NCBI GenBank assembly: GCA_028291705.1
Contig: JAQGNS010000314.1
Location: 1-38,201 of the forward strand
Length of the DNA stretch: 38,201 nt
Direction of reading: 5' to 3'
Origin: Nevskia sp.
GTDB taxonomy: Bacteria; Pseudomonadota; Gammaproteobacteria; Nevskiales; Nevskiaceae
Shown: positions 28,588 through 37,228 of the stretch, one piece after another
Numbering within the stretch: the first letter of the stretch is position 1
How the letters are laid out: each line of letters opens with the position of its first letter
The notes under the pieces: generated by a model
Told to the model about the DNA's origin: nothing
Seen by the model: only the letters and a program-made list of their open reading frames with translations
Database searches by the model: none
Translations under genes and position numbers: made by a program

Positions 28588-30258
28588 TTATGCGCCGCTA
28601 TGCCTCAACCGGCGATAGCGCCGGATCAGCGTGTTGGTGGAGCTGTCATGGCTCAGTTGCGGCTCATCCTTGGCCGCAAGCTCGGCAGCGGTGCGCGTAG
28701 CCAGGGCCTTGCCCAGCTCCACGCCCCACTGGTCGAACGAATCGATGTTCCAGATCACGCCCTGCACGAAGACGCTGTGCTCGTACAGCGCCACCAGGGC
28801 GCCGAGCGTTTCCGGCGTCAGCTTCTCGGCCAGGATGGTGTTGCTCGGCCGGTTGCCCTCGAAGGTTCGATGCGGCACCAGGGCCGCGGCGGTGCCCTCG
28901 GCGTGTACCTCTTCGGCGGTCTTGCCGAAGGCCAGTGCCTCGCTCTGCGCGAACAGGTTGGCCATCAGCAGGTCGTGCTGCTGGCCCAGTGGATTGAGCG
29001 GCTGGCAGAAGCCGATGAAGTCGCAGGGGATCAGGCGCGTGCCCTGGTGGATCAGCTGGTAGAAGGAGTGCTGGCCGTTGGTGCCCGGCTCGCCCCAGTA
29101 GATGGCGCTGGTGGCGTAGTCCACCGTGCGGCCGTCGAGGGTGACGTGCTTGCCGTTGCTCTCCATGGTGAGCTGCTGCAGGTAGGCCGGGAAGCGCTTG
29201 AGGTATTGCTCGTAGGGCAGCACCGCCAGCGTTTCGGCGCCGAGGAAGTTGTTGTTCCACACCGCCAGCAGGCCCAGCAGCACCGGCAGGTTGCGCTCCA
29301 GCGGCGCGTTGCGGAAATGCTCGTCCATGGCGTGGAAGCCGGCCAGCATGGCGCGGAAGTTTTCCGGGCCGATGGCCAGCATGGTGGACAGGCCGATGGC
29401 CGAGTCCATCGAGTAGCGTCCACCCACCCAGTCCCAGAAGCCGAACATGTTCTTGGTGTCGATGCCGAACTTGACCACTTCCTGGTCATTGGTCGACACC
29501 GCGACGAAGTGCTTGGCCACGGCCTTCTCGTCGCCCAGGGCCTCGATGCACCAGCGGCGCGCGGCATGGGCGTTGGTCAGGGTTTCCAGGGTGGTGAAGG
29601 TCTTGGAGCAGATGACGAACAGCGTCTCCGCCGCGTCGAGGTCGCGCACCGCCTCGGCGAAGTCGGTGCCGTCGACGTTGGAGATGAAGCGGAACTGCAG
29701 GTCGCGGCGGCTGTAGTGGCGCAGCGCCTCGTAGGCCATCACCGGGCCGAGGTCGGAGCCGCCGATGCCGATGTTGACCACGTTGCGGATCGGCTTGCCG
29801 CCGTGGCCGGTCCACTGGCCACCACGCACGCGCTCGCAGAACGCCGCCATGTGTTCGAGCACGGCATGCACTTCCGGCGACACATCTTTGCCGCCGACGC
29901 GGATCGGCTCGTCCGCCGGTGCGCGCAGGGCGGTATGCAGCACGGCGCGCTTCTCGGTGACGTTGATGCGCTCGCCGCGGAACATCGCCTCGATGCGTCC
30001 GGGCAGGCCGCAGGCCACGGCGAGGTCCTGCAGCAGGCCCAGGGTTTCGGCGGTGATGCGCTGCTTGGAGTAGTCCAGGTACAGGCCGGCGCCCTCGGCG
30101 GTATAGCGTTCGCCGCGCGAGGACTCGGTGGTGAACAGCTCGCGCAGGTGGCGGCCGCCGATCTCGTCATGATGCCGCTGCAGCGCCCGCCACTGCGGCC
30201 GCCCGCTGACCAGGGGCGCGGCCTCGGTGAAAGCCGGCCGCGGCAGGTCCGCGGTCAT
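28588..30258 (-). CDS. pgi: Glucose-6-phosphate isomerase
   Basis: 556 residues. Interconverts glucose-6-phosphate and fructose-6-phosphate. Signatures present: [13 protein letters not shown] (phosphate binding), [35 protein letters not shown], the catalytic region [20 protein letters not shown] with the conserved Glu and His, and near the end [11 protein letters not shown]. The ATG at 30258 overlaps the tal stop codon as ATGA. In some bacteria tal and pgi are fused; here they are separate but translationally coupled. Length is typical. Confidence 0.96.
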
Positions 30259-31358
30259 GCGGCGCCCTTGGCGGCACCGGTGCCGGCAAGGGCCGAGCTG
30301 CTGTCGGCGATGCGCTTGAGCAGTTCCTTCCAGGATTTGACGAAGGACTGCGCGCCGTCGTGCTGCAATTGCAGCGCCAGCGCGTCGACGTCGATGCCGG
30401 CCTTGGCGAAGCGCGCCAGCATCTCCTCGGCATCGCCGCCGTCGGGCGCCAGCGCACCGCTCAGCGCGCCATGGTCGGCGTAGGCGCGCAGGGTCTTCTC
30501 CGGCATGGTGTTGACGGTGTCGGGCGCGGCGAGGCCTTCGACGTAGAGCGTATCGGGCGCCTGCGGGTCCTTGGTGCCGGTGCTGGCCCACAGCAGGCGC
30601 TGCGGCCGCGCATTGGCGCCGGCCAGCGTGCGCCAGCGCGGCGAATCCAGCAGCTCGCGGTAGGCGCGGTAGGTGCGCTGGCCGATGGCGAGGCCGAGCT
30701 TGTTGCGCAGTTCCGGCGGCGCCTTCTCGGCGATGGCCTTGTCCCAGCGGCTGACGAAGAGCGAGGCGACCGAGGCCACACGCGGATCGCGCCTGGCGGC
30801 GATGCGGCGCTCGATGCCGCGCAGGTAGGCCTCGGCGGCGGCGAGGTACTGCTCGCGCGAGAACAGCAGGGTCACGTTGATCGGGATGCCGGCGAAGATC
30901 GCTTCCTCGATCGCGGGGACGCCTTCGGGCGTGCCGGGAATCTTGACGAACAGGTTGGGGCGGTCGGCCTGCTCATGGATCTGCTTGGCGGCGGCGATGG
31001 TGCCGGCGGTGTCCTGCGCCAGCAGCGGCGACACTTCCATCGAAACCCAGCCGTCGAAGCCGTCGGTGGCGTCGAACATCGGCCGGAACTCGTCGGCGGC
31101 GCGGCGCAGGTCTTCCAGCGCCAGCTCCATGAACAGGGCCTCGCCGGATTTGCCCGCTTTGGCCTTCTCGCGGATGCCCGCGTCATAGGCGTCGCTGTTG
31201 CCGATGGCCTCGTCGAAGATGGTCGGGTTGGAGGTCAGGCCGGTGAGGGAGAATTCCTGGATGCTCTTGCGCAGGCTGCCGTCGTCGAGCATGCCGCGGG
31301 TGATGTTGTCGAGCCACAGGCTCTGGCCGAGGTCGCGCAGCAGGCGGGTCTTGTTCAT
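30255..31358 (-). CDS. tal: Transaldolase
   Basis: 367 residues. Transfers a dihydroxyacetone unit between sedoheptulose-7-phosphate and glyceraldehyde-3-phosphate. Features: [13 protein letters not shown] near the N-terminus, VSMEVSP, the Schiff-base lysine in [21 protein letters not shown] and [10 protein letters not shown]. The size (about 365) places it in the larger bacterial class rather than the 315-residue E. coli type. The ATG at 31358 has CAGGAAC upstream and overlaps the stop of the HAD gene as ATGA. It also overlaps pgi downstream by 4 nt. Confidence 0.95.
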
Positions 31359-34643: not shown

Positions 34644-35321
34644 ATGTCAGTCGTGCCCTTGTTCGATTCCCAGATTTTCATCCTGGCCCGTCCGGGCGCC
34701 GGTGTGGCGGAGCGCTACCTGTGCTTGCGCCTGGAGCGGCTGCCGCGCCCGTACCGCGTGGCGTTCGCGGCGGCCTGTGCCGAGCGCCACGCGCCGCGGC
34801 TGCGCAATGAGCTGTCGGGTATTGCCGGCAGCGGCGAGGAATTCGGCATCGCGCTCGACTTGGTGTGGGAATCCGCCGCGCACGAGGGCATCGACCCGTC
34901 GTGGCTGGCGAGCATGCTGCTGCCTTGCGCGGAGACCTACCGCCGCCAGGCCACGGGCGCCGAGGACAGCGTCAGCACCCTGCTGGCCTGCCTGGAAGTC
35001 GCCGGTGGCGGCGAGTGCGAACCGGCACTGCGGGTCAGCCGCTGCGTGGTGCGCGCCCTGGAAGAGCAGGCGGCGCGCGAACAGCAGGTGCAGGCCCGGC
35101 ATCGGGGCCCGGTGCACACACAGTGGCCCAGCCCGCTGGCGCGGCTGGAGCGCGAACGCCAGTTCCGCGACCTGACCGAGCTGCAACACACCGCCGCCAC
35201 GCCCTCGGTGAACCTGGTGCGGCGTCTGCGCGATCGCGCAGCGATGGAAGCGGGCCTGCCGACGGATGAAGCCATCTTCGAGCCTGCCGCCGCGATGCAG
35301 CGCCACCACGGAGTGTACTGA
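34644..35321 (+). CDS. DUF416 family protein (YjaG-like)
   Basis: 225 residues. The middle part resembles E. coli YjaG: YLCLRLERLPRPYRVAFAAAC, CAERHAPRLRNELSG, ALDLVWESAAHEG and DSVSTLLACLEVAGGG. The family is soluble, helical and of unknown function. The C-terminal 60 residues (from about 165) are extra compared with YjaG. The ATG at 34644 is used because the similarity starts soon after. It is followed 2 nt later by a small membrane protein and then by the GNAT-SLT gene, all on the plus strand. Confidence 0.75.
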   Translation: MSVVPLFDSQIFILARPGAGVAERYLCLRLERLPRPYRVAFAAACAERHAPRLRNELSGIAGSGEEFGIALDLVWESAAHEGIDPSWLASMLLPCAETYRRQATGAEDSVSTLLACLEVAGGGECEPALRVSRCVVRALEEQAAREQQVQARHRGPVHTQWPSPLARLERERQFRDLTELQHTAATPSVNLVRRLRDRAAMEAGLPTDEAIFEPAAAMQRHHGVY

Positions 35322-35322
35322 A

Positions 35323-35538
35323 ATGCACGCCCTGATCGCCGATGTGGCGCTGCTGGTGGCCCTGGCCTATGGCGCATTCGCCGTGTTCATGGTGGCGGCG
35401 CCGCTGCTGCGGCGCGGCGCGTCACCCTGCATCGCGCGCGATGCGCAGGGCGCCGATGCGGCGCAGAACCCCATTACCACCGCGCGCCTGGCCGCCGCAC
35501 GCTACCCGCTGCACACCTGCAACACGCGTTCGTTTTAA
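35323..35538 (+). CDS. Small membrane protein, function unknown
   Basis: 71 residues. One N-terminal membrane segment (IADVALLVALAYGAFAVFMVAAPLL) is followed by a short polar tail with two cysteines. The ATG at 35323 lies just after the stop of the DUF416 gene and has GGAG 9 nt upstream. No family recognised. The position suggests cotranscription with DUF416. It may be a chance ORF, but the hydrophobic segment is strong. Confidence 0.55.
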   Translation: MHALIADVALLVALAYGAFAVFMVAAPLLRRGASPCIARDAQGADAAQNPITTARLAAARYPLHTCNTRSF

Positions 35539-35606
35539 ACGCGCTCATTGTTAAAGAAGCGCGCTCTCCGCGGCAATCCGCCGCATGCCCCTGACACCCC
35601 CCATCC

Positions 35607-37010
35607 ATGCACGCCTTGCGGTATCGATTTGCAACACCCGGCGACGCGGCCCTGCTGGCGCGTCTCAATGTTCAACTGGTGGAAGACGGCGCCGACTTCG
35701 GTCCGGCCGAGCCGGCTTACCTGGAGCGGCGCATGCGGCGCTGGCTCGACAGCGGACATGACCACGCGGTGTTGTTCGAGAACCGGGATGGAGAGGTGAT
35801 GGCTTACGCGGTGTACGAGGAGCAGCCGTTCGAGATCTACCTGCGCCAGTTCATGGTGCTGGGCGCGGCGCGCCGCCATGGCATCGGCCGCCAGGTGTTC
35901 GAAACGCTGCGCTCGGAGATCTGGTGCAAGGACAAGCGGCTGACCCTGGAGGTGCTGACCTCCAACCGCGCCGGCTATCGCTTCTGGCGTTCGCTGGGGT
36001 ATCGCAATTGCGCGGTGACGCTGGAGATTCCGGTGCCTGCGCCGTCGCGCGCCGAGCAAGCGCCGTCGCGCGCCGAGCAAGCGCCGCCGCGTGCCGCGCA
36101 GCCGCGTATTGTGCAGGCTGGCCGGTCCGCCTGGCTGCCGGCGCTGGCGCAGGCTTTCATTGATGCTCCGTTGCAGGCATTGCGCGGCTTGCGCGCCTGG
36201 TCCGGCCATCGCGCCCGGGCTCTGGGCCGCTACGGCAGCGCGCTGGCTTTCGCCGGCTTCGTCTCGGTGCCCGGCGCCGTGGCCGCGCCGGCCGTGCCCG
36301 TGGTGCCGGTATCGTTCACGCGCGGCACCCAGGTCTTGTCCGCGCCGGTGTCGCGCCTGCCGCGCACCACCCCGGTCGATGTGCTCAGCGACGAGGAACT
36401 GCGGGCCCTGCGCTCCAGCGGCGCGCGTTGCTCTGCCTCGATCTACCGCATGGCCTGGGCCATGGCGCGGGTCTACCAGGTCGAGCCGGCCTGGGTCGCC
36501 GCCATCATCGAGGCCGAGTCCTCCTGTCATCCGGATGCGGTGTCGAAAGCCGGTGCGCTGGGGCTGATGCAGCTGATGCCGGGCAGCGGCGCGCGCGATG
36601 CTTACCGCCAGGCCTACGGCAGGAGCGGCCAACCCGCGGATGCCCTGCTGCGCGATCCCGAGGCCAATATCCGCCTGGGTACGGCCTACCTGCGCGGCCT
36701 GCACCGGCACTTCGTCAATTTCGACTCGGCCCAGGTGCGCCTGCTGCTGGCCGTCGCCTCCTACAACTGCGGCACCGACCTGTTCGATGCGCAGTTGCCG
36801 GCGGCGTCTGCCAACTGGGAAGCGGCCGATGCCGAGCACTGGATCGCGCAGCACGCGCCGCGCGAGACCTATGGCTACGTGGTGCAGGTGCGGGTCATGG
36901 CCATGCGCTACGCCGCCGCGATCCATGCGCTGCATGCTGATCATGCGCTACGCGTGGAGCCGGTGTTGGCACACGCGGAGCCGGTGGTGGTCGCCGAAGC
37001 GTTGCCATGA
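35607..37010 (+). CDS. GNAT acetyltransferase fused to an SLT lytic transglycosylase
   Basis: 467 residues in one uninterrupted frame. Residues 1-145 are a GNAT N-acetyltransferase with the acetyl-CoA loop ARRHGIGR (R89-G94) and LTSNRAGYRFWRSLGY. A linker with three APSRAEQ-like heptads (145-165) follows. Residues 209-236 (YGSALAFAGFVSVPGAVAA) look like a buried signal peptide or anchor with an AVA-AP cleavage site. The rest is a family 1 SLT lytic transglycosylase: catalytic E304 in EAESSCHPDAVSKAGALGLM, then QLMPGS and SYNCG. A GNAT needs cytosolic acetyl-CoA, while SLT cleaves peptidoglycan in the periplasm, so the protein would span the inner membrane. No in-frame Met lies in the linker, so two separate products are unlikely unless it is processed. 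The ribosome-binding site is weak. Confidence 0.85.
   Translation: MHALRYRFATPGDAALLARLNVQLVEDGADFGPAEPAYLERRMRRWLDSGHDHAVLFENRDGEVMAYAVYEEQPFEIYLRQFMVLGAARRHGIGRQVFETLRSEIWCKDKRLTLEVLTSNRAGYRFWRSLGYRNCAVTLEIPVPAPSRAEQAPSRAEQAPPRAAQPRIVQAGRSAWLPALAQAFIDAPLQALRGLRAWSGHRARALGRYGSALAFAGFVSVPGAVAAPAVPVVPVSFTRGTQVLSAPVSRLPRTTPVDVLSDEELRALRSSGARCSASIYRMAWAMARVYQVEPAWVAAIIEAESSCHPDAVSKAGALGLMQLMPGSGARDAYRQAYGRSGQPADALLRDPEANIRLGTAYLRGLHRHFVNFDSAQVRLLLAVASYNCGTDLFDAQLPAASANWEAADAEHWIAQHAPRETYGYVVQVRVMAMRYAAAIHALHADHALRVEPVLAHAEPVVVAEALP
36039..36101 (+). repeat. Three tandem 21-bp repeats in the GNAT-SLT linker
   Basis: Two identical 21-bp units (36039-36059, 36060-36080) and a third diverged unit (36081-36101) encode APSRAEQ, APSRAEQ and APPRAAQ. 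The in-frame repeat sits between the two domains and may vary in number between strains. Confidence 0.85.
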
Positions 37011-37228
37011 TGACGCGCGAGAACGTGCCCCCGCCCTGCGCGGCGTCGGAGCTGGAGATCCTGCGTCATATCGCCGCCGGCCATGACGCCTTCACCGGCT
37101 GCGACGCCAACGGCGATTTCCGCAAGCGCCTGCAAGTCCTCGCCGAGCTGCGGCGCGCCGGGCTGATCGATCACGCGCAGCGGCTCACACCCTCGGGGTA
37201 TACCTTCCTGGCGCAGCAGGGACACTGA
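37007..37228 (+). CDS. Small winged-helix-like protein, function unknown
   Basis: 73 residues. The sequence SELEILRHIAAG, FRKRLQVLAELRRAGLIDHA and RLTPSGYTFLAQQG reads like a minimal winged-helix domain (helix, helix, wing strand with an LT-x-G turn). No named family recognised. The ATG at 37007 overlaps the stop of the GNAT-SLT gene as ATGA; a second ATG at 37010 is equally possible. Coupling to that gene suggests a shared transcript. DNA binding is inference only. Confidence 0.6.
   Translation: MMTRENVPPPCAASELEILRHIAAGHDAFTGCDANGDFRKRLQVLAELRRAGLIDHAQRLTPSGYTFLAQQGH

Follow-up and report, generated by a model that had tools for sequence, protein, structure and literature searches.

A single gene of Nevskia, a genus of the Gammaproteobacteria (order Nevskiales), encodes an N-terminal GNAT acetyltransferase domain and a C-terminal SLT lytic transglycosylase domain in one uninterrupted frame. 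The arrangement is conserved within the genus, and most loci for this type of GNAT in the order lie beside genes of the Kdp potassium pump. The reading that we favour, and that we consider reasonably probable, is that the product is a functional two-compartment protein made from one gene: the GNAT domain would remain in the cytosol, an internal Sec signal would export the SLT domain, and the protein would be linked to Kdp and turgor.

A conserved fusion frame

The gene is located at 35607..37010 on the + strand of the window (the whole stretch of DNA analysed, a Nevskia contig of 38,201 nucleotides). As the first-pass annotation had read it, the frame is continuous over 467 codons; it begins with ATG, encodes 467 aa with no internal stop, and has the codon-position GC of a gene. 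Its length alone is little proof in GC-rich DNA, since the opposite strand carries a 469-aa frame across nearly the same DNA (35535-36944). We count it as real because the GNAT-linker-SLT frame is conserved in four of 18 Nevskia genomes, namely the window genome (G000), G011, G008 and G003; the other three proteins are 60, 54 and 63% identical to that of the window. The annotation had proposed a search for the same architecture in related genomes, and this result is positive. At the threshold used in the genus (E <= 1e-15), two further genomes (G017 and G006) have the GNAT alone, one (G001) has only a separate SLT relative, and the remaining 11 of 18 are without a match. A search of the named collection with the GNAT recovered seven loci, of which four are from Nevskia MAGs, two from Solimonas DSM strains and one from a Sinobacteraceae MAG.

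The GNAT and SLT domains

The GNAT domain occupies aa 1-142 (35607..36032, + strand). In the window protein, Pfam places Acetyltransf_1 (PF00583) at aa 34-132 (E 2.6e-9; 37.8 bits against a cut-off of 20.7) and Acetyltransf_7 (PF13508) at aa 59-133 (29 bits against 27), and a GNAT match at E <= 0.001 is present in all four fusions. The acetyl-CoA loop of GNAT enzymes has the motif R/Q-x-x-G-x-G/A. That of the window protein, R89-R-H-G92-I-G94, is intact, and R89, G92 and G94 are invariant in alignments of the four fusions and two stand-alone relatives. Among solved structures, the best sequence matches to this half are GNATs of the BH1408 type (4e0a, 4f6a), followed by weaker matches to GNAT 4j3g and to thialysine and spermine/spermidine acetyltransferases. 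Each of these structures is of a lone GNAT chain, 149-185 residues long, whereas the domain in the fusion has an SLT partner.

The SLT lytic transglycosylase domain spans aa 263-440 (36393..36926, + strand), as judged from PF01464, alignment to MltE and MltC, and fold matches. The Pfam match in the window protein lies at aa 287-390 (E 5.7e-23; 81.1 bits against a cut-off of 21.3), and an SLT match at E <= 0.001 is found in each of the four fusions. A GNAT and an SLT domain in one frame, as initially proposed, are therefore both recovered above the curated Pfam cut-offs. The presumed catalytic glutamate, E304 (codon 36516..36518, + strand), aligns together with S305 to the ES of an MltE chain, and E304 also aligns to the ES glutamate of MltC-type chains. 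From the chain offsets, the MltE glutamate aligned to E304 would be E64 of the native protein; the PDB title of 6ghy describes MltE E64Q as an inactive mutant. Neither E304 nor S305 varies among the four aligned fusions, so that the loop at 89-94 and the glutamate singled out in the first reading are both present with their key residues unchanged.

The best solved-structure matches to the SLT half are MltE/EmtA and MltC, which share the SLT domain with the fusion but have no GNAT. Against the NCBIfam equivalog models the window protein falls far short of the cut-offs for MltC (69.1 versus 375 bits) and EmtA (64.9 versus 233 bits), and it does not reach the IagB cut-off either (14.1 versus 208 bits). 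Neither a YceG (MltG) domain nor a type 2 amidase domain was detected by Pfam at E <= 0.1 in the window protein or at E <= 0.001 in the four fusions. Stand-alone SLT relatives that share 45-47% identity with the SLT half of the fusion occur in G001 (L005, G001:C385), in the window genome (L032, G000:C199) and in G003 (L033, G003:C59). By eye, the stand-alone proteins of G001 and G003 have lipoprotein-like (lipobox-like) N-termini, while the G000 copy is cut by a contig end. The Escherichia coli enzymes MltC and MltE are lipoproteins.

Linker and signal-like segment

The two domains are joined by a variable, basic, Ala/Pro-rich linker (aa 143-262; 36033..36392, + strand) that ranges from 78 to 122 aa across the four fusions. 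The lengths of 120, 97, 122 and 78 codons all keep the frame and contain no stops; base-shuffled linkers are stop-free in 21-33% of cases. The repeat reported for the linker is real, consisting of three copies of a 21-bp tandem unit (36039..36100, + strand), but it is absent from the other three fusions and may perhaps be an expansion by slippage.

The hydrophobic stretch that had been noted at aa 209-236 (36231..36314, + strand) is likewise present, and whether the protein is scanned in windows of 13, 17 or 19 residues, hydrophobicity peaks within this stretch. On the basis of hydrophobicity scans we regard it as a signal-peptide-like segment with an AVA-type cleavage motif. In all four whole proteins the top hydrophobic 13- and 19-residue windows fall in the linker, ending approximately 20-65 residues ahead of the SLT half, and each is followed by an A-x-A-like site (AVAA, VSAA, PIAAA and VAAAA). 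The best 19-residue Kyte-Doolittle means are moderate, 1.54-1.99 across the four fusions, which would suit a cleavable signal peptide more than a strong anchor.

We compared a signal-like score with that of shuffled linkers. A rule requiring a net charge of at least 3 was scored on G000, G011 and G008; it was equalled by 528 of 5000 shuffles for G000 and 225 of 5000 for G011, and the G008 linker has no qualifying segment. The rule was then eased to a net charge of at least 2 for all four fusions, where the scores were equalled by 498, 360, 651 and 103 of 5000 shuffled linkers (10, 7, 13 and 2%), a test that is weak for each genome and, the sequences being related, does not amount to four independent tests. 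Under the eased rule the top segment of the window protein lies at aa 224, away from about 210.

An AlphaFold model of the fusion (4 sequences; mean pLDDT 60.5, pTM 0.47), which carries no information on membrane insertion, scores better in the two domains than in the linker, where confidence is low; pLDDT is < 50 also in parts 308-333 and 340-348 of the SLT domain. Among the best 50 of 1105 Foldseek matches, the titles are mostly those of acetyltransferases or of MltE/MltC.

Selection and origin of the fusion

For the six pairs of fusions, dN is 0.15-0.26 in the GNAT half and 0.18-0.31 in the SLT half, with dS of 0.49-0.75. The dN/dS ratio is 0.26-0.61 for GNAT and SLT, compared with 0.61-1.02 for the linker, so both domains are being maintained under constraint, and the linker that connects them changes fast. 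In the GNAT tree the four fusions form one clade with support of 99/98, and a single fusion event is therefore likely. The corresponding clade in the SLT-half tree has support of only 44/86, a value obtained after a misframed row (G051, with three stops given as X) and a long row (G052) had been dropped; with both rows included, the fusions appear as three changes rather than one.

Two mobile sources were considered for the gene and rejected. Among 78 candidate viral-contig stretches there was no GNAT relative. Matches were found in 206 plasmid records, none of which covered more than 80% of the query, and in the 12 of these listed the alignments are confined to aa 251-428.

The kdp neighbourhood

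GNAT of the fusion type is present in eight of 85 genomes of the order (E <= 1e-15), and six of the eight loci have kdp genes beside them, in at least three arrangements. The six comprise all four stand-alone copies and two of the four fusions. In G011 and G003 the fusion is followed by kdpA on the same strand. The stand-alone gene lies between kdpC and kdpD in G017 and ahead of kdpD in G006; in G075 and G067 it is divergent from kdpA, a layout resembling that of the Solimonas strains (L045, L046). Fusion and kdpA are on different contigs in G008 and in the window genome. In the latter both contigs break off near these genes, the window contig 1.2 kb past the fusion and the kdp contig 0.8 kb ahead of kdpA, and the contig ends share no sequence. 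More distant GNAT relatives in G209 and G413, which came from 369 sampled genomes of the class searched at E <= 1e-22, are stand-alone, and the surrounding 7-8 kb contain no kdp gene.

Because kdpA is present in 15 of the 18 genus genomes, co-occurrence of the fusion with kdp is uninformative and only position is informative. Kdp does not need the fusion, since 11 of the 14 genomes that lack it have kdpA. Nor do the six kdp-adjacent loci represent six independent events, as related species share gene order by descent.

Companion genes and a leader element

A small gene of 73 aa (37007..37228, + strand) has a start codon that overlaps the stop codon of the fusion (ATGA), an arrangement seen in three of the four fusion genomes; the gene was not found on the G008 contig. 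The overlap suggests that the two genes may be translationally coupled. The small protein has winged-helix similarity below the cut-off (PF24409, 16.5 bits versus 27). Upstream, a 225-aa DUF416-like gene (34644..35321, + strand; 17.7 bits, below the Pfam cut-off of 23.7) is found in three of 18 genus genomes at E <= 1e-5, all of them fusion carriers. It precedes the fusion in the window genome and in G003, in the latter within a cluster that also contains kdpA. G008 has two copies of kdpA (L062, G008:C74, and L063, G008:C23), the second of which adjoins the DUF416-like gene (8177-8818 of L063), with approximately 100 bases between the end of that gene and kdpA.

Comparison of the four fusion leaders revealed a conserved 21-base element with the inverted repeat GCGGC-AATCC-GCCGC (35569..35589, + strand), positioned 14-17 bases before the fusion start codons in a leader that is otherwise not conserved. 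The 17-base core of the element matches exactly once per fusion genome, 17-20 bases upstream of the fusion start codon; the 14 remaining genomes of the 18 in the genus contain no exact copy. With up to 3 mismatches the 21-mer is found at 39 places in 13 of 18 genomes, compared with 8 for a reversed control; at 0 or 1 mismatch only the four fusion leaders are recovered, and 2 mismatches add two other places. An RNA hairpin is not favoured by folding, the leaders behaving much like shuffled sequences (z of 0.02, 0.27, -1.25 and 0.64), and the expected stem occurs in two of the four minimum-energy folds. Because the leaders fold no better than shuffles, the element is a candidate protein-binding site as likely as it is a hairpin.

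Elsewhere in the window, a phosphoglucose isomerase frame (28588-30972, - strand) has an extension of about 170 residues, counted from the listed GTG, before the PGI domain, and the extension gave no Pfam hit. Genes for transketolase, G6PD, a HAD protein and a ROK-like protein are located nearby.

Discussion

A plausible sequence of events can be outlined for the fusion protein. The N-terminal GNAT domain would fold in the cytosol, and the C-terminal SLT domain may be directed to the periplasm by the basic linker and its hydrophobic stretch, which would serve as an internal Sec signal. There are two possible fates for such a signal: it could be kept as a single-pass anchor with an N-in/C-out orientation, or it could be cut at the A-x-A motif by signal peptidase I, in which case two enzymes would be produced in equal amounts from one chain. 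Precedent for such a cut comes from the FbcH polyprotein of Bradyrhizobium, which is processed at an internal signal. The gene itself may have originated once in the Nevskia lineage, when a stand-alone GNAT gene located near kdp became joined to the gene of an exported SLT protein whose signal peptide was retained. The most likely role would be adjustment of the envelope or of turgor tied to potassium uptake, which we infer from gene order only; the SLT domain would open peptidoglycan, while the GNAT domain may acetylate a small amine or a protein partner. It is doubtful that the whole of a more elaborate version applies, in which a self-splitting or membrane-spanning protein places two enzymes at a 1:1 ratio across the membrane, ties a potassium or turgor response to wall opening, and has its expression set by a dedicated leader element.

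Several other explanations can be weighed against a functional two-compartment protein. One is that translation from an internal GTG, TTG or ATG yields the SLT domain as an additional or even the main product, which would make the signal-like segment an ordinary N-terminal signal peptide and the joined frame a by-product of a tight gene pair. In-frame starts do precede the hydrophobic stretch, at aa 143, 169, 189, 192 and 195 in the window protein, at ATG 159 in G003, at 171 and 177 in G011, and at 143, 152 and 159 in G008, and the window GTG at aa 143 has GGAG upstream. However, no internal start has a position common to all four fusions, the aa 143 site of the window is the only one before the hydrophobic stretch with a Shine-Dalgarno-like string, and no stop codon separates the GNAT and SLT halves in any of the four genomes. 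The scarcity of Shine-Dalgarno strings is a weak argument, because by eye the main ATG, too, shows none that is clear at the usual spacing; taken together, we consider this explanation unlikely. An artefact of assembly or sequencing that joins two genes might be suspected in a genome of 614 contigs with 4.56% contamination, and such a merge had been named in the first-pass annotation as a way in which its claim could fail. It is refuted by the presence of the fusion in three other genomes, which brings the number of assemblies to four. The annotation had also named relatives in which the same locus encodes two separate ORFs; none were seen, the relatives found being GNAT genes alone. Its third such case, an internal start that yields only the SLT part, is the explanation judged unlikely above.

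It is also conceivable that one half is dead, the GNAT or SLT domain having lost its function to serve as a tether or relic. The SLT motif, usually Y-N-A-G, is YNCG at aa 386-389 of the fusion, but this is not a sign of decay, since the separate SLT relatives carry YNCG too. With R89/G92/G94 and E304/S305 invariant in all four proteins and the dN/dS ratios of both halves as low as given above, loss of either activity appears quite improbable. The same evidence bears on the earlier description of the gene. The view of a cytosolic-type and a periplasmic-type enzyme with a signal-like joint in a single protein is supported by conservation in four genomes; the suggestion of a recent fusion that had lost one function is not supported, dN being lower than dS in each half and the catalytic residues being retained. 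The annotation's further ideas, that acetyl-CoA status might be coupled to wall cleavage or that muropeptides might be acetylated, are conjectural, and the gene neighbourhood points through Kdp to potassium and turgor. Equally improbable, in our view, is an entirely cytosolic protein in which the hydrophobic stretch is a chance product of an Ala/Val-rich linker. The stretch is only moderately hydrophobic, its signal-like score is reached by 2-13% of shuffles, and G008 has no segment under the stricter rule; on the other hand, the stretch and A-x-A-like residues recur in four divergent linkers, lytic transglycosylases work on periplasmic murein, and two of the stand-alone SLT relatives have lipobox-like N-termini.

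Among known proteins, the two-compartment fusion that we favour has relatives in kind, yet it differs from each of them. AmpD1 of Chromobacterium violaceum is a GNAT-amidase fusion that, like the Nevskia protein, carries an N-terminal GNAT domain (PF00583) on a peptidoglycan-processing enzyme (PMC12323641). Its authors see AmpD1 as apparently restricted to close relatives, leave the role of the GNAT domain open, and predict a cytoplasmic location from signal-peptide predictions (PMC12323641). The partner in AmpD1 is a type 2 amidase, and both halves are predicted to be on the same side of the membrane, unlike the opposite sides that we propose for the Nevskia fusion. A second comparison is MltG of Enterococcus faecalis, which according to the corresponding passages has an extended N-terminal cytoplasmic segment whose phosphorylation by IreK provides a regulatory input (PMC12369325). 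If the SLT domain of the fusion is exported as we propose, each of the two proteins would have, in one chain, an N-terminal part in the cytoplasm and a transglycosylase that cuts the wall on the other side of the membrane; MltG differs in having a YceG rather than an SLT domain, and its cytoplasmic part is, in the same passages, predicted to be disordered and is not an enzyme. In the open-licence PMC literature, no GNAT-SLT architecture was described in the titles or opening lines of abstracts among the matches listed.

Finally, we note what the fusion could mean for the control of the cell wall. The action of wall hydrolases has to be kept in step with turgor, and to our knowledge the coordination of potassium uptake with wall opening in Gram-negative bacteria is poorly understood. 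If our reading is correct, the Nevskia protein would be a further case, besides AmpD1 of Chromobacterium, in which a GNAT domain has been joined to a murein enzyme. A single gene that combines a cytosolic and a wall-cutting enzyme, and that belongs to a Kdp-linked family of acetyltransferases, would then offer a simple handle on the link between potassium and the wall.
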